Position numbers and translations under genes: made by a program | Notes under the pieces: generated by a model | Databases searched by the model: none | What the model was told of the DNA's origin: nothing | Seen by the model: only the letters and a program-made list of their open reading frames with translations | Shown here: piece by piece, positions 9,214-34,423 of the stretch | How the letters are laid out: every line of letters begins with the position of its first letter | Position numbering within the stretch: position 1 is the first letter of the stretch | Source: Candidatus Methylobacter oryzae | GTDB taxonomy: Bacteria; Pseudomonadota; Gammaproteobacteria; Methylococcales; Methylomonadaceae | Length of the DNA: 44,025 bases | NCBI GenBank assembly: GCA_945861405.1 | Contig: CAMAUL010000021.1 | Location: 1-44,025 of the forward strand | Reading direction: 5' to 3'

Positions 9214-9218
9214 ACTTC

Positions 9219-9620: not shown

Positions 9621-9640
9621 AAATTAAAATTAAAAAAAAT

Positions 9641-11556: not shown

Positions 11557-11573
11557 AGTTAGGGATAGAGGAT

Positions 11574-11606: not shown

Positions 11607-11629
11607 GCTACTCGTAATAGGAGGGCAAG

Positions 11630-12022: not shown

Positions 12023-12028
12023 TGGATT

Positions 12029-12053
12029 GCAGGTGCGATTTTGTCGCACCTGC
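12029..12053. terminator. Perfect hairpin between flaG and fliD, no T-tract
   Basis: GCAGGTGCGA (12029-12038) and TCGCACCTGC (12044-12053) form a 10-bp stem with a 5-base loop. No T-run follows, so it may be an attenuating or mRNA-stabilising hairpin rather than an intrinsic terminator. Confidence 0.4.
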
Positions 12054-12085
12054 GCCAGACTCAATAATTTAAAAGGAGAAGGGCA

Positions 12086-13852: not shown

Positions 13853-13860
13853 TTCTGTTG

Positions 13861-13893
13861 ATGCAAGCAGTCGTGGTGGCTGCTTGCATTTTT
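13861..13893 (+). terminator. Rho-independent terminator after fliD
   Basis: ATGCAAGCAG (13861-13870) pairs with CTGCTTGCAT (13880-13889) around a 9-base loop and runs into TTTTT. It ends the flaG-fliD transcript. Confidence 0.85.
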
Positions 13894-14015
13894 CGCTACC
13901 TTGTTGAGCGGCATCTTTTTGCGGCCTAATCTATTGGCGCGGCAGTTGGTCATAATCTTTAATGCATGAAAGCAATCAATTTCAGACGGCATCAGGTCAT
14001 CATGCTTAACTTGTT

Positions 14016-14040
14016 AAGTTAAAAAAGATTAACTTTTTTT
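14016..14040 (+). terminator. Second terminator-like hairpin before fliS
   Basis: AAGTTAA (14016-14022) pairs with TTAACTT (14029-14035) and is followed by five more Ts. The A/T-rich stem is weak, but it sits just ahead of the fliS promoter region and may insulate it. Confidence 0.45.
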
Positions 14041-14053
14041 CGTAAAATTAAGG

Positions 14054-14080
14054 TAAAGTTTTCATTAGAACTGTCGCTAC
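14054..14080 (+). promoter_or_regulatory. Possible sigma-28 promoter of fliS
   Basis: A perfect TAAAGTTT (14054-14061) is followed by an 11-base spacer and GTCGCTAC (14073-14080), which matches the -10 consensus GCCGATAA at five of eight bases. fliS lies 60 bp downstream and is separated from fliD by terminators, so a promoter is needed here. Confidence 0.5.
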
Positions 14081-14140
14081 AGTTAATAAGTGTTGCAGGT
14101 GTAACTGGAACGCAACACAATAATAAATGAGGATAACCAA

Positions 14141-14533
14141 ATGAATGCAGTATTTGCAATGAAGCAGTATCAACAAGTGAGCGTTCACAGTGGGGTAATG
14201 GATGCCTCGCCCCATCGTCTTGTGCAAATGCTGATGGAAGGAATGCTGGAAAAAGTTGCTTTGGCGAAAGGCAATATGGCCAACAATAATATTGCCAGTA
14301 AAGGTGAAAATATCAGTAAGGCCATCGCTATTGTTGGCGGGTTGCAGTCCTCTTTGAATATAGACGCAGGGGGCGAGCTTGCAGAAAATCTGAGTAACCT
14401 TTATGACTATATGACTAACCGTCTGGTTATGGCAAACTTGCATAATGATGAAGCCATTTTGGATGAGGTTGCCAGCTTGATGGTGGAAGTAAAAATAGGC
14501 TGGGATGGTATTCCTGAGACGTTTAAACATTAG
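14141..14533 (+). CDS. fliS: Flagellin export chaperone FliS
   Basis: The 130-residue helical protein matches FliS throughout: MKQYQQVSVHSGVMDASPHR LVQMLMEG near the N-terminus and NLYDYMTNRLVMANLHND in the third helix. FliS binds the C-terminal D0 helix of flagellin in the cytoplasm, prevents premature polymerisation and delivers it to the export gate. It follows fliD and precedes a fliT-like gene, the standard order. Confidence 0.96.
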   Translation: MNAVFAMKQYQQVSVHSGVMDASPHRLVQMLMEGMLEKVALAKGNMANNNIASKGENISKAIAIVGGLQSSLNIDAGGELAENLSNLYDYMTNRLVMANLHNDEAILDEVASLMVEVKIGWDGIPETFKH

Positions 14534-19637: not shown

Positions 19638-19656
19638 TCAAGCCCGGTTCATTGGA

Positions 19657-19687
19657 TAAAAAAGGCAGCTTTGAGCTGCCTTTTTTA
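19657..19687. terminator. Terminator of the rplS operon
   Basis: AAAAAGGCAGCT and AGCTGCCTTTTTT form a long stem with a 3-base loop and A and T flanks. It works for the rplS transcript and possibly for the cluster arriving from the other side. Confidence 0.92.
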
Positions 19688-19863
19688 TGGTTAATTGTTT
19701 AGCTTAGTTGGAAGCGACCCAACCCAACCACCTAGGCCGTTGCACCAAAGTCAGGTATCCTCTCTTTTTTAGTGAAAATTTGTAATGAAATGTATGCACA
19801 ATGGCGGCGGCATGTGGAAGCTTTATTTGGTGGAAGATTAACAGACATTTAAGTTGAATATTT

Positions 19864-20967
19864 TTAAATGAAATTAATGTGTTGTACGTCCTGCTTAACC
19901 AATCTGTTAAGGTAACGGTTAACCTCGTCCATCCGACAGTTAAGGCGACATTCGCGAATATCGAGTTCTTCGCGTACATAGCGAAAATTTTTGCGACGGG
20001 ACTCACCTTCCCAAATATCGCGAAAGGACGATGCATTGATATTGCCGTAGTCGAAACGCGGATCAAGCAGATAGGCACTACATCCATACACCGCCCCTGT
20101 AGACATGACATAGGCCCAAAAAGCAGGTGTGGCGTGGCATTGGCTATAGCGATGCGCATCGCCTTCATCGTGTTTCTTCATGGTGTTTTCACGGTAGATC
20201 ACGCTGAACTGTTCGGTATTTAGGGCTGCCAATTGTAAACCTAGTTCGGCATAACCTTGATAATTGATCTTCTGGTAGCGTTGGGTTTCGCTGAAAGTGT
20301 GTTGTGAGTAAGGCTTGATCACCAGATAGTCCAAACCAATTTCGTCGCGGCAAAGTCGGGCAAGCGTCTCAACTTCGGCGGCATTTTCAGGCAGTAGCAA
20401 TATTTGGGCGCCGAGTACACAGGAATAGCCACCATGGCGACGAGCTTCCACCATACGTTTGAGGTTGGCAAGGACACGGTCGAATTCTCGTGCCTTGGTT
20501 TGATGGATGCGGGCGTAGGTTTCTGCGCTACCGGCATTTACCGATGCCTTGATCCAGGACATTAAGGGCAGGGCGCGTTCAACAAATGCGTCGGATAAAA
20601 TAGACGCATTAGTGGTCATGGCGGTATTGATGCCAGCCGCTGCTGCTGTCATTACCATACGATCAATCTCTGGATGCAGCATAGGTTCGCCTTCTCCGGC
20701 AAACATGACGCTTTTTACACCGTGTTGCCCCATCTCTGCCAGAGTGCGCTCGATAACTTCCAGCGCCAGACGAACAGGCTTGTAACCAATGTAATCAACG
20801 GCGCAAAAGGTGCATCGGTGATTACAGGCACCTACTGGAGATATTTCCACATAAAGCGGGTATATCTTTTTCATCTTGTCCCAGTCATCGGCGGCATCAA
20901 GAAATTGAGCTACCCGTTGGGGGTGATAAATGAGTTTGTGACTGTCAATGGCGTAGCGGTCAGACAT
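19864..20967 (-). CDS. Radical SAM/SPASM enzyme (cluster gene, distal end)
   Basis: The 367-residue protein has the radical SAM cluster motif C48-x3-C52-x2-C55 (ACNHRCTFC), a GEGEP SAM-binding motif (about 92-96) and a C-terminal SPASM/twitch-like region with cysteines (YGCSAYLLD; ECRLNCRMDEVNRY) for an extra Fe-S centre. SPASM enzymes modify peptides, proteins or small metabolites by hydrogen abstraction. It is related to the protein at 27385-28791 along its length, and both end in HINFI. It is the last gene of the minus-strand cluster, 15 bp after the E1-beta gene. The substrate is unknown. Confidence 0.85.
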   Translation of the reverse strand: MSDRYAIDSHKLIYHPQRVAQFLDAADDWDKMKKIYPLYVEISPVGACNHRCTFCAVDYIGYKPVRLALEVIERTLAEMGQHGVKSVMFAGEGEPMLHPEIDRMVMTAAAAGINTAMTTNASILSDAFVERALPLMSWIKASVNAGSAETYARIHQTKAREFDRVLANLKRMVEARRHGGYSCVLGAQILLLPENAAEVETLARLCRDEIGLDYLVIKPYSQHTFSETQRYQKINYQGYAELGLQLAALNTEQFSVIYRENTMKKHDEGDAHRYSQCHATPAFWAYVMSTGAVYGCSAYLLDPRFDYGNINASSFRDIWEGESRRKNFRYVREELDIRECRLNCRMDEVNRYLNRLVKQDVQHINFI

Positions 20968-20981
20968 GGTATTTATAGTCC

Positions 20982-22055
20982 TTAAAAGGGGCCGCAGAAT
21001 TCCCGCTGAGGAACATCGTGTGGTGTGGAGCGGTGCAGTCGATTGACAAGTTCAATATCAGCTACAGCGACATTGAGGTGAGACACTATGGCGCGGGCGA
21101 GATGAAGCGCATCAGGATAGTAGTCTTTGCTTAGGTGGTGTGAGGTCGGCGCAGGTAAATCCGGCAACGCTATACGTAGCGGCGGTTGACGCAGTGAGTT
21201 GAATGCAGCCTCGGCAACGGCTGCGACCACTTCGCCAGCGATGCCGCCGGTCTTCCAAGCTGTGTCGGCGACAATCAGCACACCGGTGCGTTGGACTGAT
21301 TCAATAATGGTCGTCATATCAAGAGGTCGCACCGCCCGTGCGTCGATCACTTCAAGGTCGATACCCAAATCGACCAGTGCCTTGGCGACCAGTAGAGTTT
21401 CAATCACCATGAAGGAAAATGCGACCACTGTGGCATCCTTGCCGGGACGACGCAGCATCGCTTTATTAAGGGCTACGGTATAGGGTAAGGTTGGCACCTC
21501 GTCGGTAATGCCGTGCAGCCAGCGGTGTTCAATGAAGATCACCGGGTTGTCATCACGGATTGCTGCTAGCAGCATCCCTTTGGCATCGTATCCGCTTGAT
21601 GGCATTACGACCTTAAGTCCCGGCACATGGGCAAACAAAGCTTGCAAACTTTGCGCGTGTTGAGGTCCTTGCCCCCAACCCCGGCCAACGATAACTCTGA
21701 TCACTAAGGGTACGTTGACTTGGCCTGCGAACATGTAGCGCCACTTGGCGGCGTTGTTTATCAGTTGATCCATGCACAGCAGGGTAAAGTCGATACGTTG
21801 GTGTACCATTACCGGGCGTAGGCCGGAGATGGCCGCGCCGATACAAATGCCGGTCATGCCATTTTCGGCAAGTGGCATGTCGAACACCCGTGCTGTACCG
21901 AAACGCTCTTGTAGTCCAGAGGTCGTACCGAAAACCCCCTTGGGATCGGGGACGCCCTCGCCGATGAGGATGACACGCTCATCTTCGTCCATAGCTTGCT
22001 CTAGCGCTTCACGAATCGCTTCGGCTTGTGTGATCTGACGGGTTGTTTCAAGCAT
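20982..22055 (-). CDS. Thiamine-diphosphate enzyme, E1 beta-like subunit
   Basis: I start it at 22055 (MLETTRQITQAEAIREALEQ), eight bases inside the end of the alpha gene; longer starts add residues foreign to the family. The 357 residues match E1-beta of pyruvate/branched-chain dehydrogenases: LIGEGVPDPKGVFGTTSGL, FDMPLAENGMTGICIGAA, EHRWLHG, and the transketolase C-domain with EVIDARAVRPLDM. The tail PAPTSHHLSKDYYP is also family-like. Beta subunits complete the ThDP site with alpha. No E2 or E3 gene is present, so it may act alone as a 2-oxoacid decarboxylase or carboligase. Confidence 0.88.
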   Translation of the reverse strand: MLETTRQITQAEAIREALEQAMDEDERVILIGEGVPDPKGVFGTTSGLQERFGTARVFDMPLAENGMTGICIGAAISGLRPVMVHQRIDFTLLCMDQLINNAAKWRYMFAGQVNVPLVIRVIVGRGWGQGPQHAQSLQALFAHVPGLKVVMPSSGYDAKGMLLAAIRDDNPVIFIEHRWLHGITDEVPTLPYTVALNKAMLRRPGKDATVVAFSFMVIETLLVAKALVDLGIDLEVIDARAVRPLDMTTIIESVQRTGVLIVADTAWKTGGIAGEVVAAVAEAAFNSLRQPPLRIALPDLPAPTSHHLSKDYYPDALHLARAIVSHLNVAVADIELVNRLHRSTPHDVPQREFCGPF

Positions 22056-23019
22056 ACAAATACCCGGGCAAATCTGCTTGCTGTGGAATACTGCCAGCCA
22101 GTGCCGCTGTAAAGGCATCATTAATTTCTTTGCTAATTTCCTGTTCGGAATGGGTGATAAAATCTTGGCCTTCAGGTCTGGCGTTAAGTAGGGTTGCCAG
22201 TTGGTTTATCGGGCAGAAGGCCTGCCATTTAGCCACTTCTGCTGCCGGTCGGTAGCCTAGGTCATCGTCATTATTCGGGCCACAATGTTCTCTCCAGCGA
22301 TAGGTGGCGCATTCAAGAAAGACTGGCTGATTTCCGCTGCGTAAGTCAGCAACTGCACGACTGGCGACATCGTATACAGCAAGCGCATCGTTACCGTCGG
22401 CAAGCATAACGTTGCATCCACATGCTGCGGCCACCCCATGAATTGGACGCTCCGGTTGGCGCGTGGATAATCGCGTGTAGCAAGCATAAAGGTTGTTTTC
22501 GCAGACAAAAAGCACGGGAAGCCGATGGAGTACGGCAAAGTTAATGGACTCATACACCACTCCTTCTTCAAAGGTTCCATCGCCTAGAAATACCGTAATG
22601 ACTTTATTTTCGCCGCGCAATCTTGCGGCCCAAGCCGCGCCGACTGCCAAAGGTACCGTTGCGCCGACGATGGGTACCGCGCCTAGAAATCCAGCCGCTA
22701 AATCTATCATGTGCATTGATCCGCCGATGCCTTTGCAGCAGCCCTCAGCCTTGCCGTAAATTTCTGCCAGCATAGCGGTTAGGTCGCCGCCCTTGGCGAG
22801 GTAGTGGGCATGAGCTCGATGGCCGCTAAAAACGCCATCCTGTTGGGTCAGTGCCGCACACACGCCTGCGGCTATGGCCTCTTGGCCTATAGACAGGTGT
22901 ACCGGACAGCGCATTTCTTGCGCTGCATAGCGTTCGGCAATAGATTCTTCGACACGGCGGATGCGCAGCATGACGCGATAGAGTGACTTAATGCGGCTAG
23001 TGGAAAGAGCTTTATTCAT
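22048..23019 (-). CDS. Thiamine-diphosphate enzyme, E1 alpha-like subunit
   Basis: The start at 23019 (MNKALSTSRI) has AAGG upstream. The 323-residue protein carries the ThDP-binding motif GDG (146-148) to ENN (174-176), the SIGQEAIAAGV segment and the GHRAHAHYLAKG and GIGGSMHM loops of E1-alpha. It would bind ThDP-Mg and decarboxylate a 2-oxoacid together with the beta subunit, whose gene overlaps it by 8 bp. In a cluster with glycosyltransferases and radical SAM enzymes it more likely makes a sugar or acyl building block than feeds a dehydrogenase complex. Confidence 0.88.
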   Translation of the reverse strand: MNKALSTSRIKSLYRVMLRIRRVEESIAERYAAQEMRCPVHLSIGQEAIAAGVCAALTQQDGVFSGHRAHAHYLAKGGDLTAMLAEIYGKAEGCCKGIGGSMHMIDLAAGFLGAVPIVGATVPLAVGAAWAARLRGENKVITVFLGDGTFEEGVVYESINFAVLHRLPVLFVCENNLYACYTRLSTRQPERPIHGVAAACGCNVMLADGNDALAVYDVASRAVADLRSGNQPVFLECATYRWREHCGPNNDDDLGYRPAAEVAKWQAFCPINQLATLLNARPEGQDFITHSEQEISKEINDAFTAALAGSIPQQADLPGYLYA

Positions 23020-23023
23020 AGCA

Positions 23024-24013
23024 CTATACCTTCGCAGCAGGAGCAATGGTTGGTTCAGTCAGGAGATTGACGATGGATTTGTGAATGTTTTCCACTGAAA
23101 TGTGAGTTATGCAGGGCTCTGATTTTGGGCAGAACGATTCCATGCACGGTATGCAATCCCAGTCGAGCGGAGGCATAATTTTAATTAAATGCTTGCCCTC
23201 AACTTCGGTAGCGATGGTCGGTCCGAAAAGAGCCACCACGGGCTTGCCTAGTGCAAGGGCAATGTGCAGGCCGAGCGAGTCATTGGTGACTAGAACGCGG
23301 CAGCTGGCAATCCATTCGATATAGTTATTGATGTCGTTATCGCCTTGTTGCCAGCAAATTGAATAGTGTGCTGCTAGCTTGTCATGAAGGCTCTTCCAGT
23401 GTGCTTCAGGCCAGCGCTTAAGTGGGAATTTTTTTCCTATAAGATGGTTCAGTCCTACGTCGTAGAGGATTTCTGGCTGGGGATGGTAACCAAGTAAATA
23501 TGGTTGCCCGGTATATTTGTGGCCCAGCATCTCGTAGAGAATGTCAGACCAGGATTTTTCTTTTTTGCGTTTAGCTGCGGAATCGGTGGTAAAACTCAGG
23601 GCTTCGTCGGAATGATCGTAGGCAACTGCCGAATGCCTTTGCGGGTCGAGCCGGAAGCCATAGCGTCGCCACGCTGGGATGCGATCAGACACTGCGCAAA
23701 TTCCAGGTTCCTTCTCAAAATTAACAACGATGTCGAACCACTCGGAGAGTAATAGATGCGGAGTAAATGGGTTTACTGTTAGCAGTCGATGAATATGGGG
23801 ATTTCCCTTAAGCAAGGGGAGGCCTTTTTTGTCTACCAGCCAAGTAACGTGGTACTGATCCGATGGAAATAAATGCAGGATCACGGTAGTTCGCAGGATG
23901 TCACCAAGGCTGACAACGCCGCTATCATCTGGATCCAGCGTTTCGCTGTAACCGGCTTTTATTATTAGAATGCGCTTGATGTTACCATCCGTAGCTGGAT
24001 TAGTCGTATACAT
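23024..24013 (-). CDS. Glycosyltransferase family 9 (heptosyltransferase-like)
   Basis: The 329-residue protein starts its Rossmann fold with RILIIKAGYSETL and has the GT9 C-domain signature LVTNDSLGLHIALALGKPVV followed by ALFGPT. Near the end a Cys cluster (CIPCMESFCPKSEPC) matches that seen in many heptosyltransferase-like proteins. GT9 enzymes use ADP-heptose or related donors for lipopolysaccharide cores, and some glycosylate proteins. It sits 4 bp before the E1-alpha gene and 10 bp after a radical SAM gene, so it belongs to the same transcript. Donor and acceptor are unknown. Confidence 0.85.
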   Translation of the reverse strand: MYTTNPATDGNIKRILIIKAGYSETLDPDDSGVVSLGDILRTTVILHLFPSDQYHVTWLVDKKGLPLLKGNPHIHRLLTVNPFTPHLLLSEWFDIVVNFEKEPGICAVSDRIPAWRRYGFRLDPQRHSAVAYDHSDEALSFTTDSAAKRKKEKSWSDILYEMLGHKYTGQPYLLGYHPQPEILYDVGLNHLIGKKFPLKRWPEAHWKSLHDKLAAHYSICWQQGDNDINNYIEWIASCRVLVTNDSLGLHIALALGKPVVALFGPTIATEVEGKHLIKIMPPLDWDCIPCMESFCPKSEPCITHISVENIHKSIVNLLTEPTIAPAAKV

Positions 24014-24023
24014 GATTTTTTGT

Positions 24024-25172
24024 CTAAAGAGGTGGGGTGAAGAATTTTTGCGAATAATCCAGATTTTCGACCTTATCGTAAAGGCTGGCTGGCATTTGGA
24101 TATTGCGAATCATGACTGAGGTATGCGCGATGCCTTGGTCGTAATAACTCTGGAAGCGGTCATTCTTGACCTTGGTGTCACAGCCGATACAGCGGCCGTA
24201 ATGTCGGCAGGATCGAAAAACTTCCAGGTCAGCCATGGTGAAGTCGGGATCTAGCATATGCCCGATTGGAGCCAAGTCGTGGATTGCAAAAATTCTTGCT
24301 CTGTTTTCAGAATATCGGAAACCTTGAGCCTCCAGTTCCTCGAACTCCCTTACCGGGCCACCTGCGATCCAGCTTTGGTAAAGATAGAAATGGCAACCCC
24401 AGACAAATCCGAGGGGATCCAGTAATAGCTCAGTCGTTCGGCATTCGCAGCTCAGGGTGTTGAGGTGGATGTTGCGGGCAATCAGATCTGTTGAGAACGG
24501 ATAGAGGTAATGGCCGTGAAGTTTGCCTTCATGAATACCCAGAAACTCCTTGCTTTCAAAAGGCACCCGCCCGGTATAAGTCGATTCCATTTCAGCAGTC
24601 ATTTTGTTTTGGGGATGAGCTACCATGTAAATGCCGACATCACTCTCCGCCTTGGACGGAGACACGCGGAAGCCATAATCAGATAGCGCTTCACAGCGGT
24701 TTATCAGTTCTGCGAACCCCTGTCCGCGCCAAACACGATTCATCTCTTCGGCATGATAGCTGACTCGAATCGAAGGGTAGGGGGCATCCCGCTGGAGCTT
24801 GCGTTGTTGACCATTCAGGTTGTTGGCAAACGTTTTGGGCTTCAAAGCAAAATTTGTGAGCAGGTCGAAGTAGTGGGGAGTTTCAGATAAAATCATGCCC
24901 AACCCCTTGCCGCTCCAGTAGAGCATCGGTTCACCGCCTTGCAAGGTTATTGGCAAGTCTTCGCGGTATGGGATCCGGTTCAAAGCTTGCGACCATTCAG
25001 CGGGCGTCAGGCATTTGCGCAGAGATTTGGCCTGAATCGGGAATAACATTTCTCGCTGCCCAGTTTGCTGGGGATCGTTGATGCAGTAACTACAGCTTAA
25101 GTTGCACTCGAGGGTGAGGAACACTCCAATATAGTTTAGGGTATTAGGCAACTGAAGGGACGGCAAAACCAT
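24024..25172 (-). CDS. Radical SAM enzyme with extra C-terminal cysteines
   Basis: I choose 25172 (MVLPSLQLPN), with AAGGTAG eight bases upstream, over a longer frame to 25223. The 382-residue protein has the radical SAM motif C23-x3-C27-x2-C30 (CNLSCSYC) and LQGGEP as SAM-binding loop. Cysteines in the second half (LSCECRTTEL; FVWGCHFYL; CRHYGRCIGCD) suggest at least one auxiliary Fe-S cluster. It is only distantly like the two SPASM paralogues of the cluster. Its role cannot be told from sequence alone. Confidence 0.82.
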   Translation of the reverse strand: MVLPSLQLPNTLNYIGVFLTLECNLSCSYCINDPQQTGQREMLFPIQAKSLRKCLTPAEWSQALNRIPYREDLPITLQGGEPMLYWSGKGLGMILSETPHYFDLLTNFALKPKTFANNLNGQQRKLQRDAPYPSIRVSYHAEEMNRVWRGQGFAELINRCEALSDYGFRVSPSKAESDVGIYMVAHPQNKMTAEMESTYTGRVPFESKEFLGIHEGKLHGHYLYPFSTDLIARNIHLNTLSCECRTTELLLDPLGFVWGCHFYLYQSWIAGGPVREFEELEAQGFRYSENRARIFAIHDLAPIGHMLDPDFTMADLEVFRSCRHYGRCIGCDTKVKNDRFQSYYDQGIAHTSVMIRNIQMPASLYDKVENLDYSQKFFTPPL

Positions 25173-25252
25173 GAGAATAACTACCTTAAAATTAAATTGC
25201 GTGGTTTGGTTCAAACTGTCCATTGACGGAAGTGATATCGATTTTTCATCAG

Positions 25253-26008
25253 TTACATCCTTTCGCCAACGATCAATATTTCATTAGTAGGAACAAGTAT
25301 GTCCTCATTGATGTTGATACTTATTGTCTCCTTGATTTTTGTTGGCACTCTGCCACGATCAAGCACTCTGTCAAGGTAGAATTTCGGGTTCTGAATCATG
25401 AAATAGTCGGAAATTTCCAATACTTTGAAACCATTATTTTCCAGCAACTCCCTGACAGATTGTCTGCTCCACCACGTTAAATGTACGGGGTACCTATACC
25501 TGTATGGAATGCCTGTTTCGGTTCCTACCGTGGTCATTACCAGTTTTCCGCCTTTTTCCATAAGTTGGGATAAGTCATGGATGATTTTTATGGGGCAGGG
25601 CAAATGTTCCAGTACGCCCCATAAGGTTATAAAATCAAATTTTGAATTTAACGGCGCTCCAAGTTCATTCTGCGGATAGTCATAACCGAACCAATTGTCG
25701 AAACCATCCTCCATGACAAATAAGTTATCGCCGCAGCCAAAATCCAGCAGTCGCTGTTCTTTGCTTAAACCATAGCGGCTTAAATATTCAATATTCTTGC
25801 GATTATTTTTCCTGACTGTGTCGCGAATCATCTCCCGGTCATACTCTGTGTAATAGACATAGTCGCTGTAAAGCTTTTCCAGTACTGCGTCACTGGGCAT
25901 GGGGGTTGCAAACTCCAGATTGCATAGCTTGCATTTGCAAATTGAGGCGTTATCGACCTTGAAGATCGGGAAGCTATCGTTGCCACATACAATACATTTT
26001 ACTGTCAT
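25253..26008 (-). CDS. SAM-dependent methyltransferase with N-terminal zinc ribbon
   Basis: The start at 26008 has AAGGAG eight bases upstream. The 251-residue protein opens with cysteines C5-x2-C8 and C24/C26-x2-C29, a zinc-ribbon as in sugar C-methyltransferases and related enzymes, then a class I methyltransferase core with motif I LLDFGCGDN and LWGVLEHLP. Proteins of this build methylate sugars, lipids or small molecules. It starts 12 bp after the cobalamin-type radical SAM gene. O- versus C-methylation cannot be decided. Confidence 0.82.
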   Translation of the reverse strand: MTVKCIVCGNDSFPIFKVDNASICKCKLCNLEFATPMPSDAVLEKLYSDYVYYTEYDREMIRDTVRKNNRKNIEYLSRYGLSKEQRLLDFGCGDNLFVMEDGFDNWFGYDYPQNELGAPLNSKFDFITLWGVLEHLPCPIKIIHDLSQLMEKGGKLVMTTVGTETGIPYRYRYPVHLTWWSRQSVRELLENNGFKVLEISDYFMIQNPKFYLDRVLDRGRVPTKIKETISININEDILVPTNEILIVGERM

Positions 26009-26020
26009 AACCACGGCTCC

Positions 26021-27307
26021 TTAGCTGACAAAAAAAGACATGTCTTTTCTTTTGAAGTAATTTACATAATCATCAATGGTGGCTTGCAGTTTGCCTTCAT
26101 TATCCACACTGCGAACTTCAGGGATAATAAAATCACGCACCGGATTTTTGCAAAAATCTCCCCAATGGTCTCGATCAAATTGACCGCTATGCAACAATTC
26201 TTCGTAGTAGGGCGTTTCGGCCAATGGCGACAACAGATTGAAATATGGCAGGCGTATTCCCAGATTATCAATCCGTTGCGGCAGTGTACGCAGATATTCT
26301 TCTGTTTCACCGGGAGCGCCGATTATGAAATAACCCAGGACATCGATGCCGTATTTATTGCACAGCTCGCAAAACTGTTCTATGTGCTTGAGTCGACAAG
26401 CTTTTTTGAAGTATATTAAAATATCATCGTCCAGGCTTTCAATGCCGACGTGCAGCCTTTTGCAGCCTGCAGCAGCCAGATCGGCGATGACTTGCTCGCG
26501 AATCTCGACTGTGCCTCGTGCGCTCCAATCAACCGTAAGGTTGTTTTGTACGATTGCCTCACTCAAGGCTGAGACGCGCGCCTTGTTAATGTTGAACGCA
26601 TCATCCAGAATATGGATCGAAGTGGCACCCATCTTGATCAGCTCGCTAAACTCCGCAATGCATTTGTCTACTGATTTGAAGTTAAAAGTCTTCTGCTGAA
26701 CATCGCAATAAATGCAGCCATACGGACAGCCTTTTGAACTGAACATAGGCAGACGTAAAGAGCCAACGTTAAATAGCAGATCGTCATTTTGTTCAATACG
26801 ATAATCTTCAAGATCGAGAAGATGACGTGCGGGCAGTGGAATGGTATCCATGTCTACTTGTCCGCCAAAGAAGACCCCCGGTGGGCAGCCATCTTCCAGC
26901 CATTTGGGGAAGATAATCTCCGCATCATCGACAAAGACAGCGTGGGCACCTTGTTGTAATATGATGGCATGGCTTTTTGTCGTGTGCGGGCCACCGACTA
27001 TTTTAATAGGAGCAGAGGTGCGGTTGAGGATCTCGACCATAGCCCAAGCGCGATAGGTCACGACCGAAAGCCCCAGAATATCAGGCGCAAAGTCTTCAAT
27101 GACTGTTATGGTTTCCTCCAGAGTGAGGCCGAGGCTGGCTGCATCCAGTATTTTAATTTCGTACTGTTCAGGGATGCAGGCAGCAACGCTGAGCACACCC
27201 AAGGGCATGTACTTGACTGCACTGTTCTTATAAAACTTTGCAGTGACACGATCCTGCACTTCGCCCTCATAGGGCATAACAGCCAGAAGAATTTTTTTAG
27301 CTTTCAT
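26021..27307 (-). CDS. Cobalamin-type (B12-binding) radical SAM protein
   Basis: The 428-residue protein has an N-terminal Rossmann domain of the B12-binding type (about 1-150, with IVGGPHTTKSH) followed by a radical SAM domain with C194-x3-C198-x2-C201 (GCPYGCIYC). The domain lacks the D-x-H-x-x-G motif: its equivalent reads DAASLG at 55-60, as in many class members that bind B12 without a histidine ligand. Such enzymes do C- or P-methylations, ring contractions or other rearrangements. In this cluster a sugar or peptide carbon is a plausible target, which is inference. Confidence 0.85.
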   Translation of the reverse strand: MKAKKILLAVMPYEGEVQDRVTAKFYKNSAVKYMPLGVLSVAACIPEQYEIKILDAASLGLTLEETITVIEDFAPDILGLSVVTYRAWAMVEILNRTSAPIKIVGGPHTTKSHAIILQQGAHAVFVDDAEIIFPKWLEDGCPPGVFFGGQVDMDTIPLPARHLLDLEDYRIEQNDDLLFNVGSLRLPMFSSKGCPYGCIYCDVQQKTFNFKSVDKCIAEFSELIKMGATSIHILDDAFNINKARVSALSEAIVQNNLTVDWSARGTVEIREQVIADLAAAGCKRLHVGIESLDDDILIYFKKACRLKHIEQFCELCNKYGIDVLGYFIIGAPGETEEYLRTLPQRIDNLGIRLPYFNLLSPLAETPYYEELLHSGQFDRDHWGDFCKNPVRDFIIPEVRSVDNEGKLQATIDDYVNYFKRKDMSFFVS

Positions 27308-27384
27308 TTGCGTAACTTTTTAATAGAGGCAGCCGCCATTAACATTCTTAGTCAATTCACTATTTGCAAATCTGTTAAATCAAA

Positions 27385-28791
27385 TTAAATGAAATTGATA
27401 TGTTCTGGCGGATTTTTCATATCCCACAGAAACTTATTCACATAATCCTGTCGGCAACCGATAGCGCAATCTTTGTGTACATCGACCGATTCATTTATAT
27501 CACGATGAACTGCCCAATACCGATCACCCATTACCATGTCGAAAAACGACTGCTCGTGGATGTCGCCAATATAGAAGCGTTCCTTATTAAAAAACGGCCC
27601 ACAGGGGTAGACTTTGCCATTGCCTGACATTTGTAAAACGAAGGGGGTTCCATAGCAAACGTCGTATTTCCTGAAGCCGTCTTTGTATAGTGGCGATTCT
27701 GTCCCTGCTTTAATTTTGTCCCATTTCACTTGAACAACATAGTCATCGGTCGAAAAACTTTCCGCCTCTTTCAACACGTCTTCTATTCTCAGGTAATCAT
27801 TATAGTCGATTCCTATTTCCTTATATTCCGAGTCGGAACAATGCTTGATCACGAAGTAGTCTACACCCAGTTTTGCTCCCAATTCAGCTTCCTTTAATAC
27901 TTGATCGTAGCATTCTGGTATCAGCACCATTTGCAAGCCGAGAGTACAAGGATAGTTGTGTTTTTTCTTGATTTCGACGAGGATTTTGATTTTCTCAATC
28001 AAAAGGTCAAAGTTTTTTGCCTTGGATTGGTGGACACGTTGAAATCCTTCAGCATCACCTGCGGAAAGATTAAATCTGATCCACGTCATGTCGCGTAACA
28101 TGTCATGTGCCCGATCCATATCGAACAGTAGGCCGTTTGTTGCCATCGCTGTGTCAATGCCAAGTTTGCGTGCAAGAACAGTCGCATCATACAAAGCGGG
28201 ATTAAGTGTTGGTTCACCATCCCCTATAAAACCAATTGAACGCACTCCAAGTTTTCCACAATCTTCAATATACCGGAGCAAAGCGTCCCGTTGTATCATC
28301 GTCCCCTGAGTCATGTTTTGAACCACTGCGTAACAATAGAGGCAAGCGGTGTTACAAAACTTGGTCAGCCCCATGTCGATATGAACCGGCGCGAATTTCT
28401 CACCCCTCTCCCATGCGGCAATCCGATCAAGGTGGTACATCAATTTGTGGCCATCAAAGCGAAACCTCTCTCGCTTCGTCCTGAAAGTCGGGCCGGTAAA
28501 CATATTGGGGCAATTCTTATCCTCATCCTTGTGACAGGATTTATCAAGTCGAATAATCCCAACTTGCCCGGCCTCTTCAACAAACTGGATATCCTGGCTG
28601 GATAATACCTGTAACTCTTTAGACTCAAGTTGTTGAGGTCTTGATTCCCTTTCCTCAGTCAACGCCTTGCGATCAACGATATGGTTGGATGTCCTGAGTT
28701 TATGGCCGGGTTTTTCCGCCAACTGGGCATCGCTTGGTATGGCTGTTGCAGCACTCTCCCCAAAGCGGTTTTTCGATATTTCATCGCTCAT
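27385..28791 (-). CDS. Radical SAM/SPASM enzyme (cluster gene, proximal)
   Basis: The start at 28791 (MSDEISKNRF) has GAGGAGGAA six bases upstream. The 468-residue protein has an extra, polar N-terminus of about 110 residues, then HKLMYHLDRI, the radical SAM motif C146-x3-C150-x2-C153 (FCNTACLYC), GDGEPTLN, and a C-terminal Fe-S region (KVYPCGPFFN; KDCAIGCRQDYVNKF). It ends HINFI like the paralogue at 19864-20967, which lacks the N-terminal extension. The extension carries C86 and C94 and may dock a partner. The substrate is unknown. Confidence 0.85.
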   Translation of the reverse strand: MSDEISKNRFGESAATAIPSDAQLAEKPGHKLRTSNHIVDRKALTEERESRPQQLESKELQVLSSQDIQFVEEAGQVGIIRLDKSCHKDEDKNCPNMFTGPTFRTKRERFRFDGHKLMYHLDRIAAWERGEKFAPVHIDMGLTKFCNTACLYCYAVVQNMTQGTMIQRDALLRYIEDCGKLGVRSIGFIGDGEPTLNPALYDATVLARKLGIDTAMATNGLLFDMDRAHDMLRDMTWIRFNLSAGDAEGFQRVHQSKAKNFDLLIEKIKILVEIKKKHNYPCTLGLQMVLIPECYDQVLKEAELGAKLGVDYFVIKHCSDSEYKEIGIDYNDYLRIEDVLKEAESFSTDDYVVQVKWDKIKAGTESPLYKDGFRKYDVCYGTPFVLQMSGNGKVYPCGPFFNKERFYIGDIHEQSFFDMVMGDRYWAVHRDINESVDVHKDCAIGCRQDYVNKFLWDMKNPPEHINFI

Positions 28792-28915
28792 GAACTTCCT
28801 CCTCATGTTTTTCGTCTTCCAGCCCATTGGTATTGGGCCACCAATTTTCGTTCATCTTGAGTGCTGCCGTTTTGAATGTAAAGTTTAAGTTACGAAGGTG
28901 ATAATCGAGCATTTT

Positions 28916-31900
28916 TTAGACTCTTGTGTGTCCTTTGGGCGAACGGCTTGCGCACCATTCCCGCCATAGTTGCCGGTATTCTTGTTCCACAGCCCGCGCA
29001 TAAGCGGCCTGATCGCCGATCACTGATGCAGTAAAAATACCCCGCAGTTGCTGACGAAGTGTAGCCAGGGATTGCAAGTCTGTTGCTTTTTTAGCGGCAA
29101 GTTCAACGTACTCTTTAGGAGTTTCTGCAATCCAGTCGGTCAGTCCCAGGGTTGTCATAATCGATGCCGATAGCCTTCCCGCTATGGTTGGCCAACGTAA
29201 GGTCATCACCGGCACACCCATCATCAGACATTCCAGTGACGTTACCCCGCCACCATGGGGAAATGGATCCAGCGCAATGTCAACTTGATGGTAGGCCTGC
29301 ATATGTTCACGCCATGAGGTCTTTCCTTGCATGATGATCCTGTCCGCCGCCACGCCGACTTTTGTAAAATGCCCAATAATCGATTCCCTGGTCTTCAGAT
29401 CAGCTAATGCATTAGTCTTCAGAATCAGCCTACTCCGTGGAGCCTCCAATAATATTTCAGCCCATGCCCGGTAGGCTTCTGCCGATATTTTCTCCAAGCG
29501 GTTAAAGGAGCCGAAGGTGATGATCCCGTCTGACAAGGCGGGCAGTTCATTCACGGCAGGGAACGGCTCAGTAAAAAATGATCCCACCACATTCGGCAAG
29601 TATCTGACTTCCTCGGTGAAATAGTGCTTCTCTTGCGGCGGCACCACCACCGGATCGGCAAAAAACACATCCATTGCCTGCATCCCCGTACCTGTCGCAT
29701 AGCCCCAGGCGGTTATTTGGATGGGTGCCGGTTTGCGTGCAAAAACCAGCAGGCGGTTGCCCGCCGTGTGTCCGGACAAATCAACCAGTACATCAATCTG
29801 ATCCTCCCGAATCATTTTTGCAACTGCATCATCCGATAGGCCGATGATGTTTCGCCAAGCGGTTACGTTTTGCTTGAACAGCTCAGTAAATTTGTCGTTC
29901 TTTTCCCTGATATTGGCATAGGCAAAGACCTCAAACTGTGAGCGGTCATAGTGGGTTAGCATGCCGCCAAAGACTTTAGCCGCAGAATGATCCCTGAAGT
30001 CGGCAGAGACATAGCCAATGCGTATTCGGCGCTCAGGATCTGGAATATTGGTGTGTGTCTGCGGTTTTAGTAAATGGGCTGCGTGCGCAGCATCCCATCG
30101 TTTCCGTTCCTCCAGCAAAGAAGAGGGGGCACGATCAATCATCAAGTCCAGGGTAAAAATCAGGTTGCTGTGTGCTGTGACGTAGTTTGGTTTGATCTCC
30201 AGTGCTCGCCGATAGTAGCTTTCGGCCTCATCTAGCTGACCCTGAGTAGTAAGTATGATTGCTAGGTTATTATGTGCCTCCACGTAATCCGGCTTGATCT
30301 CTAGGGTTCGTTGGTAGCATCCTTCGGCCTCGTCTTGCCGGGCTAGCCCCATAAGAATAATGCCCAGGTTGTAATGCGCCTCAGCTAAATCCGGCTTGAT
30401 CTGCAGCGCCAGTCGACAACTGACTTCAGCTTCGTTTAGGCGACTCAGCTCTAGTAGAGTGAGGCTTAGATTGATATGTCCTTCTGCATAATCCGATTTG
30501 ATTTTCAGGGCTTGTCGCTGGCAGGCTTCGGCCTCATTCAACCGACCCATAATCCTGAGGGTATTGCCCAGATTGCTATGCATCTCTGCTAAATTCGGTT
30601 TGATCTCCAATATTCGTCGGTAGCTGGCTTCGGCCTCCTCTAGGCGCCCCATGTCATTTAGGGCGTTTCCCAAGCTATAGTGCGCCTCGACAAAATCTGG
30701 CTGGATCTCCAGGGCTCGTCGGTAGCAGGCTTCGGCCTCTTCTAAGCGCCCCATCTCCTTGAGAACATCTCCCAGATTAGAGTGTGCTCCGACATAATCC
30801 GGATCGATCTGTAGCGACCATCGGTGATTGGCTTCGGCCTCGTCCAGTCGGTTTAGACTCTTGAGGGTAAGACCTAGGTTGTTATAAGCCTCGGCAGTCG
30901 GCTTGATCTCCAAGGTTCTCCGGTAGCCGACCTCTGCCTTGTCTAGCTGACCTAGATCCTTGAGGATGTTGCTCAGGTTATAATGCGCGTCGGCATGATT
31001 AGGTTTGATCTGCAGTACTCGCCGGTAGCTGACTTCAGCCTCGTCGAGCCGACCCAGATCAAAGAGGACAGTACCCAGATTGTAATGAGCCTCAGCGTAA
31101 TTATATTGGATTTTTATTGCTCGTCGGTAGCTGACCTCAGCCTCATCGAGCCGACCCAGCCCCTGAAGGGTAAGGCCCAGGTTGTTTTGCGCCTCTGCGT
31201 CAGTCGGCGATAGTGTTACTGCTTTTTGCATGGGTATCAGTGCGTCCGCATTCCGCCCCATCTGCTTGAATAGTGCCCCTAACGCCTTCCAGGCAAATCC
31301 ATGCCGAGGAAAGCGTTCGGTCATGGTCTGAGCAAGAGTTATTGCTTCTGTGTATCGTTCTTCGGTGAACATGGATATCAGTGTATTTATCTCTTGAGGG
31401 CTAGGATTTTTTCCCTTGTGCAGGATTGATTTACTGGTCGATTTGTCCGGCTTGGTCTTGGTTTTTTTTTTATTGTTTTGTGGAACTGTAGACGAAACGG
31501 GCAGCGATTCTTTGAAGGTATGCTGATATTCTGCATTTACTTGTTCGGTGATATGTGAGGCATTTTCTAAAAGTACTGCCAATGCTTCTAAATCATCACT
31601 TTGCAACCCCTGCTGTTGTGCAATTGTCAGCACCTCACGCGCGCTTTCTAACTGGTTAGCCTGAAACAGTGCGTCGATGTAACTCGCCCAGTATCGCCCA
31701 TATGTCGGGTTGGCCTCCAGTGCTTTCATGAAGTGTGGCAAACTGGCAACGGGCTGCTTCATCTGCACTGCCAAAATTCCCATATTATGGTTTGTCTCAG
31801 GATGATTCGGATGGATTTGCAGGATGGCTTGGTAAAGCTTTTCAGCTTCTTGATGCTGGTCTACCAGATGATGATCAATTGCTTGCTGGAGAGCTTGATC

Positions 31901-31951
31901 AATGGTCAAAGTTTGCTGTGGTACTTTCGTGTTTGTTATGATGGATTTCAT
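28916..31951 (-). CDS. TPR/OGT-type protein O-glycosyltransferase (GT41), copy 1
   Basis: The 1011-residue protein has about eleven full tetratricopeptide repeats (about 220-610, units like AEAHYNLGTVLFDLGRLDEA) and a C-terminal SPINDLY/O-GlcNAc-transferase domain (about 640-1000). The family histidine is H655 in RIGYVSADFRDHS, and FGSFNRLEKIS plus DPFPHGGGVTSLECL form the donor-binding part. Such enzymes transfer a sugar from a nucleotide donor to Ser/Thr of proteins held in the TPR groove. It has no signal peptide, so it is cytoplasmic. A near-identical catalytic domain is encoded just upstream in copy 2. An A10 run (coding strand) lies at 31462-31471. Confidence 0.92.
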   Translation of the reverse strand: MKSIITNTKVPQQTLTIDQALQQAIDHHLVDQHQEAEKLYQAILQIHPNHPETNHNMGILAVQMKQPVASLPHFMKALEANPTYGRYWASYIDALFQANQLESAREVLTIAQQQGLQSDDLEALAVLLENASHITEQVNAEYQHTFKESLPVSSTVPQNNKKKTKTKPDKSTSKSILHKGKNPSPQEINTLISMFTEERYTEAITLAQTMTERFPRHGFAWKALGALFKQMGRNADALIPMQKAVTLSPTDAEAQNNLGLTLQGLGRLDEAEVSYRRAIKIQYNYAEAHYNLGTVLFDLGRLDEAEVSYRRVLQIKPNHADAHYNLSNILKDLGQLDKAEVGYRRTLEIKPTAEAYNNLGLTLKSLNRLDEAEANHRWSLQIDPDYVGAHSNLGDVLKEMGRLEEAEACYRRALEIQPDFVEAHYSLGNALNDMGRLEEAEASYRRILEIKPNLAEMHSNLGNTLRIMGRLNEAEACQRQALKIKSDYAEGHINLSLTLLELSRLNEAEVSCRLALQIKPDLAEAHYNLGIILMGLARQDEAEGCYQRTLEIKPDYVEAHNNLAIILTTQGQLDEAESYYRRALEIKPNYVTAHSNLIFTLDLMIDRAPSSLLEERKRWDAAHAAHLLKPQTHTNIPDPERRIRIGYVSADFRDHSAAKVFGGMLTHYDRSQFEVFAYANIREKNDKFTELFKQNVTAWRNIIGLSDDAVAKMIREDQIDVLVDLSGHTAGNRLLVFARKPAPIQITAWGYATGTGMQAMDVFFADPVVVPPQEKHYFTEEVRYLPNVVGSFFTEPFPAVNELPALSDGIITFGSFNRLEKISAEAYRAWAEILLEAPRSRLILKTNALADLKTRESIIGHFTKVGVAADRIIMQGKTSWREHMQAYHQVDIALDPFPHGGGVTSLECLMMGVPVMTLRWPTIAGRLSASIMTTLGLTDWIAETPKEYVELAAKKATDLQSLATLRQQLRGIFTASVIGDQAAYARAVEQEYRQLWREWCASRSPKGHTRV
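30170..31205 (-). repeat. Tandem TPR-coding repeat array (about 102-bp units)
   Basis: About ten consecutive units of 34 codons, each with the pattern NLG...GRLDEAE..YRRALEIKP, make up this part of the gene; one unit is two codons shorter. Copy 2 at 33.4-33.8 kb has only about four, so unit number has changed by recombination between similar units. Confidence 0.8.
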
Positions 31952-31995
31952 GAAAGTAGCCTATTCTATATTTAGGGGACGAAACAATACTGACT

Positions 31996-32110
31996 GTAAA
32001 AATGCCTGTGTGAATAGGCCACTATTACGACCACTGGCATGAAGACCAAAGCAAGGCGCTTTTTCCAATATTCTGATTCTTGTATTCGAATCGCGGTAAT
32101 ATAAGCTCAA
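31996..32110 (-). pseudogene. Fragment of an FAD-dependent oxidoreductase (LhgO-like)
   Basis: Between the two OGT copies the minus strand reads RILEKAPCFGLHASGRNSG, which matches the FAD-binding N-terminal region of L-2-hydroxyglutarate oxidase-type proteins (ILEKE..FGLHASGRNSG). A frameshift later the text continues as PIHTGIF, fitting the next segment (VIHAGIY) of that family. Nothing else of the gene is present. It starts where the sequence upstream of the two OGT copies ceases to match, so it marks the edge of the duplicated unit. Confidence 0.5.
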
Positions 32111-32138
32111 CAATAGTGACACCCGTAGAACGACATTT

Positions 32139-34271
32139 TCATAGCCTTGCGCACCATTCCCGCCATAGTTGCCGGTATTCTTGTTCCACAGCCCGCGCAT
32201 AAGCGGCCTGATCGCCGATCACCGATGCAGTAAAAATACCCCGCTGTTGCTGACGAAGTGTAGCCAGGGATTGCAAGTCTGTTGCTTTTTTAGCGGCAAG
32301 TTCAACGTACTCTTTAGGAGTTTCTGCAATCCAGTCGGTCAGTCCCAGGGTTGTCATAATCGATGCCGATAGCCTTCCCGCTATGGTCGGCCAACGTAAG
32401 GTCATCACCGGCACACCCATCATCAGACACTCCAGTGACGTTACTCCGCCACCATGGGGGAACGGATCCAGTGCGATGTCTATCTGATTGTAGGCCTGCA
32501 CATGTTCATGCCATGAGGTCTTTCCTTGCATGATGATCCTGTCCGCCGCCACGCCGACTTTTGTAAAATGCCCAATAATCGATTCCCTGGTCTTCGGATC
32601 AGCTAATGCATTAGTCTTCAGAATCAGCCTGCTTCGGGGAACCGCTAATAATATTTCAGCCCATGCCCGGTAGGCTTCTGCCGATATTTTATCTAAGCGG
32701 TTAAAGGAACCGAAGGTGACGATCCCGTCCGACAAGGCGGGCAGTTCATTCACGGCAGGGAACGGTTCAGTAAAAAATGATCCTACCACATTCGGCAAGT
32801 ATCTGACTTCCTCAATGAAATAGTGCTTCTCTTGCGGGGGCACCACCACCGGATCGGCAAAAAACACATCCATTGCCTGCATCCCCGTGCCTGTTGCATA
32901 GCCCCAGGCGGTTATCTGGATGGGTGCCGGTTTGCGTGCAAAAACCAGCAGGCGGTTGCCTGCCGTATACCCGGACAAATCAACTAACACATCAATCTGA
33001 TCCTCCTGGATCATTTTTGCAACTGTATCATCCGATAGGCTGATGATGCTTCGCCAAGCGGTCACGTTTTGCTTGAACAGTTCAGTGAATTTGTCGTTCT
33101 TTTCCCTGATATTGGCATAGGCAAAGACCTCAAACTGTGAGCGGTCATAGCGAGTCAGCATGCCGCCAAAGACTTTAGCCGCAGAATGTTCTCTGAAGTC
33201 AGCAGAGACATAGCCAATGCGTATTCGGCGCTCGGGGTCAGGAATATTGGTGTGTGTCTGCGGTTTTAGTAAATGGGCTGCGTGTGTAGCATCCCATCGT
33301 ATCCGTTCCTCCAGCAAAGAAGAGGCGTCACGATCAATCATCAAGTCTAGGGCAAAAATCAGGTTGCTGTGTGCCATGACGTGGTTTGGTTTGATCTCCA
33401 GCGCTCGTCGAAAGCAGGTTTCAGCCTCGTTTAGTCGCCCCAGTGACTTGAGAGTACTACCCAAGCCGCAATACACATTCACGTAATTCGGTTTAATCTC
33501 CAATGCCCGCCGGTAACTGCTCTCAGCCTCATCGAATCGGCCCAGACTAAGGAGTATAGTGCCCAGGTTGTTATGCGCCTCTGCGAAATCCGGCGTGATC
33601 CCCAGTGCTCGTCGGCAGCTGGCCTCAGCCTCGTTTAGCTGCCCCAATTCTCTGAGGAGAGTGCTCAGGTTGCTATGCGCCTCAGCGTCACCCGGCAACA
33701 GCGCCACCGCTTTTTGCATAGGTATTAGCGCGTCCGCATTTTGGTTTATCTGCTTTAATACTCCACCTAACACTTTCCAGCCAAAACCATATAGAGGGAA
33801 GCGCTCCGTCATGATTTTAGCAAGGGTTACTGCTTCAGTGAGTCGACCCTCGCTTAACAGAGTCATCAGTTTATTTATCTCTTGAGGTGAGGGATCTTTT
33901 CCCTTGTGCATGGAAGATTTTCTGGTCGACTTATTCGGCTTAGTCTTGGTTTTTTTTTTATTGTTTTGCAGGGTTGCAGACGAAACCGGTAGCGATTCTT
34001 TGAAGGCAAGTTGATATTCAGCATTTGATTGTTCGGTGATTTGTGCGTCACTTTCTAAAAGCACTGCCAACGTTTCTAAGTCATCGCTTTGCAGTCCCTG
34101 CTGTTGTGCAATTGCCAGCACCTCGCGCGCGGATTCTAATTGGTTAGCCTGAAACAGTGCGTCAATGTAACTTATCCAGTGTTGCTCATCTGTCGGGTTG
34201 GCCTCTAGTGCTTTCAAGAAGTGTGGCAAACTGGCGGAGGGTTGTTTCATCTGCACTGCCAAAATCCCCAT
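32139..34271 (-). CDS. TPR/OGT-type glycosyltransferase (GT41), copy 2, 5'-damaged
   Basis: The open frame from MGILAVQMKQ codes 710 residues: two N-terminal helices, a Lys-rich linker, about four TPRs and a complete GT41 domain (H362 in RIGYVSADFREHS) nearly identical to copy 1. By comparison with copy 1 the true start is ATG 34423, but a 22-bp deletion has put it out of frame. Initiation at 34271 would need a site without a visible Shine-Dalgarno, so expression is doubtful although the catalytic domain is intact. The C-terminus ends WREWCARL, shorter than copy 1. An A10 run lies at 33950-33959. Confidence 0.75.
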   Translation of the reverse strand: MGILAVQMKQPSASLPHFLKALEANPTDEQHWISYIDALFQANQLESAREVLAIAQQQGLQSDDLETLAVLLESDAQITEQSNAEYQLAFKESLPVSSATLQNNKKKTKTKPNKSTRKSSMHKGKDPSPQEINKLMTLLSEGRLTEAVTLAKIMTERFPLYGFGWKVLGGVLKQINQNADALIPMQKAVALLPGDAEAHSNLSTLLRELGQLNEAEASCRRALGITPDFAEAHNNLGTILLSLGRFDEAESSYRRALEIKPNYVNVYCGLGSTLKSLGRLNEAETCFRRALEIKPNHVMAHSNLIFALDLMIDRDASSLLEERIRWDATHAAHLLKPQTHTNIPDPERRIRIGYVSADFREHSAAKVFGGMLTRYDRSQFEVFAYANIREKNDKFTELFKQNVTAWRSIISLSDDTVAKMIQEDQIDVLVDLSGYTAGNRLLVFARKPAPIQITAWGYATGTGMQAMDVFFADPVVVPPQEKHYFIEEVRYLPNVVGSFFTEPFPAVNELPALSDGIVTFGSFNRLDKISAEAYRAWAEILLAVPRSRLILKTNALADPKTRESIIGHFTKVGVAADRIIMQGKTSWHEHVQAYNQIDIALDPFPHGGGVTSLECLMMGVPVMTLRWPTIAGRLSASIMTTLGLTDWIAETPKEYVELAAKKATDLQSLATLRQQQRGIFTASVIGDQAAYARAVEQEYRQLWREWCARL

Positions 34272-34423
34272 ATTGCGGTTTGTCTCAGGATGGCGTGGTA
34301 AAGCTTTTCAGCTTCTTGAAGTTGGCCTACCAGATGATGATCGATTGCTTGTTGGAGAGCTTGATCAATAGTTAATGTAGTAGTTTGCTGAGGTATTTTT
34401 GTGTTTGTTATAATGAATTTCAT
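34272..34423 (-). pseudogene. Original 5' end of OGT copy 2, out of frame
   Basis: From ATG 34423 the strand reads MKFIITNTKIPQQTTTLTID, then AIDHHLVGQLQEAEKLYHAI, parallel to copy 1. Then 22 bases present in copy 1 between two CATCCTG copies are missing, and the frame runs RQTAIWGFWQCR to a stop. The distance of 152 bases to the internal ATG, against 168 in copy 1, fits the 22-bp loss plus two extra codons. Confidence 0.8.

Follow-up and report, generated by a model that had tools for sequence, protein, structure and literature searches.

A block of ten minus-strand genes (positions 19864-34423) was analyzed in a 44,025-nucleotide stretch of DNA from Candidatus Methylobacter oryzae (contig CAMAUL010000021.1 of assembly GCA_945861405.1), hereafter called the window. 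The sequence evidence slightly favours reading this block as a flagellin O-glycosylation island, which would make a branched, heptose-derived sugar by means of a DesII-like radical enzyme and a two-subunit E1-type thiamine enzyme.

The ten-gene block

The open reading frame (ORF) listing contained all ten genes on the same strand. With starts refined on homologues, the gaps between them were 14, -8 (an overlap), 4, 10, 80, 6, 77, 124 and 187 nt, so that the genes are mostly close or overlapping, as described in the initial annotation. In order of position they encode rSAM1, a radical S-adenosylmethionine (SAM)/SPASM protein (19864-20967, 367 aa); the E1 beta (20982-22055) and E1 alpha (22048-23019) subunits of a thiamine diphosphate (ThDP) enzyme, whose genes overlap by 8 nt; a GT9-like, heptosyltransferase-like glycosyltransferase (23024-24013); rSAM3, a divergent radical SAM protein with auxiliary cysteines (24024-25172, with an alternative earlier ATG at 25223); a methyltransferase (Methyltransf_23) with N-terminal CxxC pairs (25253-26014); a B12-binding radical SAM enzyme (26021-27307); rSAM2, a radical SAM/SPASM protein with an N-terminal extension (27385-28791, with an alternative earlier ATG at 28827); and two OGT-like transferases with tetratricopeptide repeats (TPR) and a GT41 glycosyltransferase domain, one intact (28916-31951, 1011 aa) and the other not (32139-34271).

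Pfam and the cysteine motifs bore out the four radical SAM enzymes that had been annotated (one cobalamin-type, three with auxiliary cysteines), and the Pfam families agreed with the proposed methyltransferase, two-subunit ThDP enzyme and GT9 protein. E1_dh, Transket_pyr and Transketolase_C were found in the E1 pair, and TPR and Glyco_transf_41 in the genes at 28916 and 32139. The radical SAM domain of rSAM3 scored below the Pfam cut-off, yet a CxxxCxxC motif and further conserved cysteines are present. Both OGT-like copies matched TPR models and the GT41 domain PF13844 (168 and 176 bits; cut-off 25), as expected from the initial annotation, but its extension of the second copy to 34423 had to be corrected. 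The ATG at 34423 starts a frame with an early stop, and the open part of the conserved TPR-GT41 frame begins at 34271. In this assembly, therefore, the most upstream copy has a disruption close to its 5' end. The glycosyltransferase parts of the two copies are 94 % identical, with one 300-nt block at 98 %, which suggests that they arose by recent tandem duplication.

Recurrence of the genes as sets

When gene neighbourhoods were compared across genomes, as the initial annotation had suggested, homologues were found to recur as sets and not scattered singly. Two types of island were distinguished. The window belongs to type B, for which rSAM3 served as marker; it occurs in 4 of 301 genomes of the order and, among 398 genomes of the phylum, in the window's own only. 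GT9 and rSAM1 accompany rSAM3 at all four loci, the E1 pair at three, and the methyltransferase, B12 enzyme and rSAM2 at two (the window and G070). The complete genome G507 carries rSAM1, E1 beta, E1 alpha, GT9, rSAM3 and GT41 in the same order as the window. Eight of the block's genes are kept in G070 (methyltransferase 70 % and B12 enzyme 82 % identical), and rSAM3, GT9 and rSAM1 stand together in the same-genus genome G022. A cluster unique to one genome is ruled out by G507, G070 and a contig of a Nitrosomonadales metagenome-assembled genome (MAG).

rSAM2 was found in neither G507 nor G022, and the methyltransferase and B12 enzyme were seen neither in the 40-kb stretch of G507, to which the search for these two was confined, nor in the examined stretch of G022. 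Because of these absences, the three genes look like accessories.

Type A islands consist of rSAM1, E1 alpha, E1 beta and rSAM2 together with genes for an NAD epimerase, a GmhA-like SIS protein and a nucleotidyltransferase-PfkB protein, the halves of which match HldE in reversed order. GmhA and HldE were the best models for the latter two proteins, with scores below the equivalog cut-offs. All seven genes occur together in nine loci (G006, G010, G019, G059, L076, L084, L008 and L009 from Paludibacterium, and L010 from Xylophilus). Among the ten proteins of the type B block, Pfam detected no isomerase, kinase or nucleotidyltransferase.

The GT9 protein did not reach the NCBIfam heptosyltransferase cut-offs (TIGR02195, 48 versus 134.6 bits); that of Pfam GT9 (PF01075) was reached over 44 residues (41.3 versus 22). 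In the window's own genome (G000), gmhA, hldE and hldD are consecutive genes; the latter two score over their cut-offs and gmhA slightly under its own, and ADP-heptose should therefore be available in the cell. A partly typed query gave no second HldE of the type A kind in G000, G022 or G070.

Other arrangements were also observed. G019 (C1 1357455-1365398; L028, L029) has three tandem copies of the glycosyltransferase gene that follows rSAM2, about 66-71 % identical to the G006 copy. Sugar islands that include radical SAM, SIS and kinase genes were seen on two Solidesulfovibrio plasmids; one of these (L111, NZ_CP026539.1 74000-122000) also has pse genes and two-gene transketolases, and the other (L201, NC_012797.1 16458-41387) NUDIX and DegT genes together with an E1 pair. 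A Brachyspira plasmid with radical SAM and epimerase genes, known from partial literature text, was considered and set aside. No description of an island of the present kind was found in the literature searched, which covered titles and abstract openings.

Flagellin as the probable acceptor

The window's flagellin gene (9760-11556, plus strand; Flagellin_N and Flagellin_C), which the initial annotation had named as the Thr/Ser-rich acceptor, is followed by flaG, fliD and fliS (11630-14533, plus strand; FliS over its NCBIfam cut-off, FlaG and FliD models below theirs). Together with dnaB and alr these genes occupy 4812-14533; the type B island is on the far side of rplS. Flagellin is quite probably the acceptor of the island's sugar, a reading that draws on the gene context in other genomes, G507 and G022 in particular. 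The strongest case for a flagellar link is G507, where the island is flanked on one side by fliE, fliF, fliG, fliI, fliM, fliP and fliR (all over NCBIfam cut-offs) and on the other by a fliS-like match (43 %), fliD and fliC (best models below cut-offs). In G022 the end of rSAM1 (7963) is 1.6 kb from the start of fliC (9578), and alr and dnaB come after fliD. Type A islands follow dnaB-alr in G006, G010 and G019 (in G010 fliC is about 17 kb further), and type B islands are near the same genes in the window and G022; thus, a single genus has two island types at the same flagellin-linked locus. In G010, NeuC-like and NeuB-like genes (C77 30491-37354; L026) were recognized by eye between its type A island and fliC, which suggests a second, nonulosonic sugar there.

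It is unlikely that the sugar is instead destined for lipopolysaccharide (LPS), capsule or exopolysaccharide and that the proximity to flagellin is incidental. The position of the core within the flagellar region of G507 and next to fliC in G022, the occupation of one flagellin-linked locus by two island types in one genus, and the TPR-GT41 proteins of the window and G507, which fit a protein acceptor, speak against such a destination. In its favour are the membership of GT9 in a heptosyltransferase-like LPS family and an Azospirillum oryzae plasmid on which the E1 pair, SIS, PfkB and aminotransferase genes stand among other glycosyltransferases. The locus counts cut both ways. Among 33 loci whose rSAM1 orthologue is at least 50 % identical, a flagellin gene was present in 8 (the window, G010, G022, G507, L009, L010, L089 and L099) and absent from the other 25; it was found in none of 14 loci with rSAM2 of at least 60 % identity and no such rSAM1. 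The 8 rSAM1 loci against none of the 14 support the flagellar link, and the 25 rSAM1 loci without flagellin, like the 14, lend support to a surface-polysaccharide destination. So does G070, where no flagellar match was seen in 40 kb around the eight block genes.

The absence of flagellin from those 25 rSAM1 stretches and the result for G070 also count against flagellin as acceptor, as do several further points. The stretches varied from 3 to 60 kb and several stopped at contig ends, and the chance of flagellin proximity, about 1 %, is an estimate from one or two flagellin loci per ~4 Mb and not a measured background. In the window itself, 8.3 kb of housekeeping genes separate fliD-fliC from the island side, and Ser plus Thr make up 26.8 % of the flagellin middle, barely more than the 24.4 % of the C-terminal part (16.9 % in the N-terminal part). 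The TPR protein next to the G022 island has no GT41 match, and one of the window's two OGT-like copies is disrupted. A TPR-GT41 gene, the candidate transferase for flagellin, was found in the window and G507, and no GT41 gene in the examined stretches of G022 and G070. The annotated acceptor is supported by the neighbourhoods in G507 and G022 but not by most rSAM1 loci.

The E1 pair

The E1 pair aligned with the solved E1 of pyruvate dehydrogenase (PDH) across the ThDP site, in which we presume the usual roles of the residues. A true PDH complex was rejected, because neither E1 beta (305.9 versus 321 and 301.1 versus 454 bits) nor E1 alpha (288.6 versus 393.85 and 190 versus 411.35 bits) reached the NCBIfam PDH E1 cut-offs, and because Pfam found no lipoyl or E2 domain among the ten proteins. 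In the parts of the literature consulted, E1 alpha/beta pairs of antibiotic pathways are described as adding a C2 unit from pyruvate to 3- or 4-keto sugars (PMC12247030, PMC4802897, PMC4753412).

A search of the 398 phylum genomes with E1 beta alone gave 22 places in 20 genomes that align through its last residue. In the stretches examined, 18 of these places have a radical SAM or HldE-like gene: 12 an rSAM1 orthologue or rSAM2 homologue, four another radical SAM gene (L187, L188, L190 and L194) and two an HldE-like gene (L197, and L199 at 28 %). The remaining four (L189, L191, L195 and L196) have neither, with epimerase-type matches in L189, L195 and L196. HldE-like genes were present at 12 of the 22 places.

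The C-terminal tail of the window's E1 beta (DVPQREFCGPF) ends in a GPF that is invariant in 16 of 16 sequences, and all compared E1 beta proteins of at least 345 bits terminate in GPF, GPY or SPF. This tail is absent from eight PDH-type sequences (L126, L172-L178) and L169, and present in the more distant L170 and L171. E1 alpha has a WREHCGP loop, and EHCGP or a near form was seen in most of the group where the loop is shown, with GHVGH in L153, L154, L157 and L162 and RGHSKSD in the seven controls (L172-L178); the comparison leaves out G006, G010, G019, G059, L079, L156, L158 and L159. The two subunits are fused in one ORF of 650-689 residues in L072, L073, L076, L078 and L079. On a Streptomyces plasmid (L200, NZ_CP051007.1 122153-153127), an E1 pair of 49-50 % identity lies beside ketosynthase, acyl carrier protein and condensation-domain genes rather than sugar genes; therefore, E1 pairs of this type also occur outside sugar clusters.

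Alternatively, the E1 pair might build the sugar skeleton, joining a C2 unit to an aldose phosphate before activation in the manner of DXS or transketolase, and so give an unbranched, chain-extended deoxy-ketose derivative. E1 beta matches DXS and transketolase models weakly, and two-gene transketolase-type proteins replace or accompany the E1 pair in L086, L105, L188 and L195 (E1 alpha ~30 %, E1 beta 22-25 %); a Solidesulfovibrio plasmid also has an annotated two-gene transketolase. The substrates of GmhA-like isomerases are ketose phosphates, which is in keeping with this route. Set against it are the lack of isomerase, kinase and nucleotidyltransferase genes in the type B block and the C2 branches that published sugar-pathway E1 pairs add to keto sugars, according to the part of PMC12247030 consulted, and we consider a skeleton-building role rather improbable. 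Branching by the E1 pair is preferred, though the missing E1 beta match in G022 (an assembly 86 % complete) tells against a universal E1 step.

The radical SAM enzymes

rSAM1 contains CxxxCxxC and four C-terminal cysteines that are invariant in an alignment of 25 sequences. Its closest solved sequences are DesII and BlsE. When its model (pLDDT 87.9) was used for a fold search, the first six matches were DesII chains with TM scores of 0.64-0.67 by query length, followed by SuiB, SkfB, sactisynthase and anSME chains, with BlsE at rank 17. For the B12 enzyme the top NCBIfam match was HpnJ, below its cut-off, and the best solved relative was AprD4, which deoxygenates an aminoglycoside sugar.

Three of the rSAM1 results detract from a DesII-like assignment: peptide maturases rank between DesII and BlsE, the curated DesII model TIGR04426 is missed (59 versus 450 bits), and the score is higher for a model of tungsten-enzyme maturases, at 73.7 against a cut-off of 380. 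Conceivably, the radical SAM enzymes act on a protein or peptide itself, as maturases of enzymes or of ribosomally synthesized and post-translationally modified peptides (RiPPs), with the sugar genes as bystanders. Many SPASM proteins are peptide maturases, such models match weakly, and SuiB, SkfB and sactisynthase chains come after DesII among the folds. In addition, long rSAM2 homologues of 65-70 % identity occur without evident sugar genes, as judged from ORF starts, in L071 (5327-6676), L074 (8864-10246) and L075 (2077-3402). We nevertheless regard this explanation as very improbable, since the best solved-structure matches, DesII and BlsE, are sugar enzymes, HldE-, SIS- and epimerase-like neighbours recur, and no precursor peptide was noticed, albeit without a systematic search for one.

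The rSAM2 model (mean pLDDT 65.3; residues 1-75 below 50) was too weak for a fold search. Its N-terminal extension, with the long-form consensus motif PGHKLRTSN..VDR, is possibly a flexible binding arm. Short rSAM2 forms without the extension are preceded by an ORF of 116-123 aa (L084, 11445-11795, without Pfam match; L032, 16742-17113). Just upstream of the rSAM2 homologue, both L074 and L075 have a short ORF that starts with MKIPGLAMVIPGIMFSSLIDMSN.

Insertion between rplS and ogt

The proposal that the block was inserted between rplS and ogt was confirmed within the genus. An ogt match is present in 20 of 23 same-genus genomes, and rplS is ~0.1-0.7 kb from ogt in all 19 of these other than the window's own, in which the distance is 15.2 kb. 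Thus, the ten-gene block is an insertion. The GC content is 48.25 % between rplS and ogt and 48.54 % in the remaining window, and composition therefore gives no mark of foreign origin. On the Nitrosomonadales MAG contig (L006), a GT41 fragment, rSAM2, the B12 enzyme and a methyltransferase fragment are ordered as in the window. Its rSAM2 and B12 enzyme are 91 % and 88 % identical to the window's, whereas same-genus rSAM2 reaches 70-71 %; part of the block may therefore plausibly derive from another genus.

Promoter-like sites were fewer than in shuffled sequence (13 versus a mean of 21.1), and terminator-like sites were not clearly in excess (22 versus 16.0, standard deviation 3.9). One terminator candidate, at 19656-19688 between rplS and the block, is a 15-pair hairpin with T-rich sequence after it.

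Proposed pathway

The pathway would start from a nucleotide sugar, most likely ADP-heptose, for which type A islands bring their own GmhA-, HldE- and epimerase-like genes. DesII-like rSAM1 would convert it to a keto or deoxy form. The E1 pair, working without an E2, would then decarboxylate pyruvate and create a branched sugar by transfer of the C2 unit to the keto carbon. Tailoring by rSAM3, and in this strain also by rSAM2, the cobalamin radical SAM enzyme and the methyltransferase, could include deoxygenation, epimerization and C- or O-methylation. Finally, TPR-GT41 would hold flagellin by its TPR part and, prior to export, attach the sugar to Ser/Thr residues in the flagellin's central domain, and GT9 may add a heptose-like unit.

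If flagellin is the acceptor, a C2-branched, heptose-derived sugar has a somewhat better than even prospect of being the product. Of the unusual sugars suggested in the initial annotation (branched, C-methylated or acyl-bearing), the branched one accords with the role of E1 pairs in the consulted parts of PMC12247030 and PMC4802897 and with the DesII-like fold of rSAM1; the product itself is a prediction. Bradyrhizose was entertained as an idea only, and none of the papers searched pairs it with radical SAM enzymes.

More tentatively, and with somewhat less confidence than an even judgement would carry, the islands may represent a new class of protein glycan, a C2-branched heptose-derived sugar on flagellin, made by exchangeable modules that are spread over the Pseudomonadota and either provide their own heptose-type activation (type A) or use the cell's ADP-heptose (type B). 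If this is true, a modular island of up to four radical SAM enzymes and a C-C bond-forming thiamine enzyme would widen the chemistry of bacterial protein glycosylation, and such radical and thiamine sugar chemistry would be new for flagella. Sugar-branching enzymes would become available from outside antibiotic clusters, and currently unnamed SPASM families would gain a function through their gene neighbourhood.

Comparison with known systems

Known flagellin glycans are mostly nonulosonic acids, deoxy-amino sugars or simple sugars. No NeuB-like gene was found in the ten-gene block. Caulobacter FlmG, a TPR and GT-B protein, glycosylates flagellin, and the parts of PMC7591256 consulted describe a system like the present one in its cytoplasmic transferase and its genes for a special sugar. 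That sugar is pseudaminic acid (nonulosonic, NeuB-type), whereas here radical SAM and ThDP enzymes accompany a GT41-like transferase.

The alphaKADH2 enzymes (AviB1/B2, Pau11/12, Plm8/9 and KbDH), as described in parts of PMC12247030, PMC4753412 and PMC4802897, are likewise two-subunit E1 enzymes without E2 in sugar pathways, a likeness by description. They belong to actinobacterial antibiotic clusters, and the radical SAM partners and GPF tail seen here are not mentioned in those passages. The yersiniose pathway also attaches a C2 branch from pyruvate to a bacterial surface sugar (PMC4753412 and PMC12247030, in part), but its YerE is a single thiamine pyrophosphate flavoprotein, in contrast to the E1 pair with flagellin as likely target.

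DesII and BlsE are the best solved sequence matches of rSAM1 and DesII its best fold, although identity is ~20 % and the score lies far under the curated DesII cut-off. Finally, the islands resemble the ADP-heptose pathway (GmhA, HldE, HldD) and GT9 heptosyltransferases, in that type A proteins match GmhA and HldE best and type B contains GT9; they differ in the type A scores below equivalog cut-offs, the reversed halves of the HldE-like protein and a likely special acceptor.

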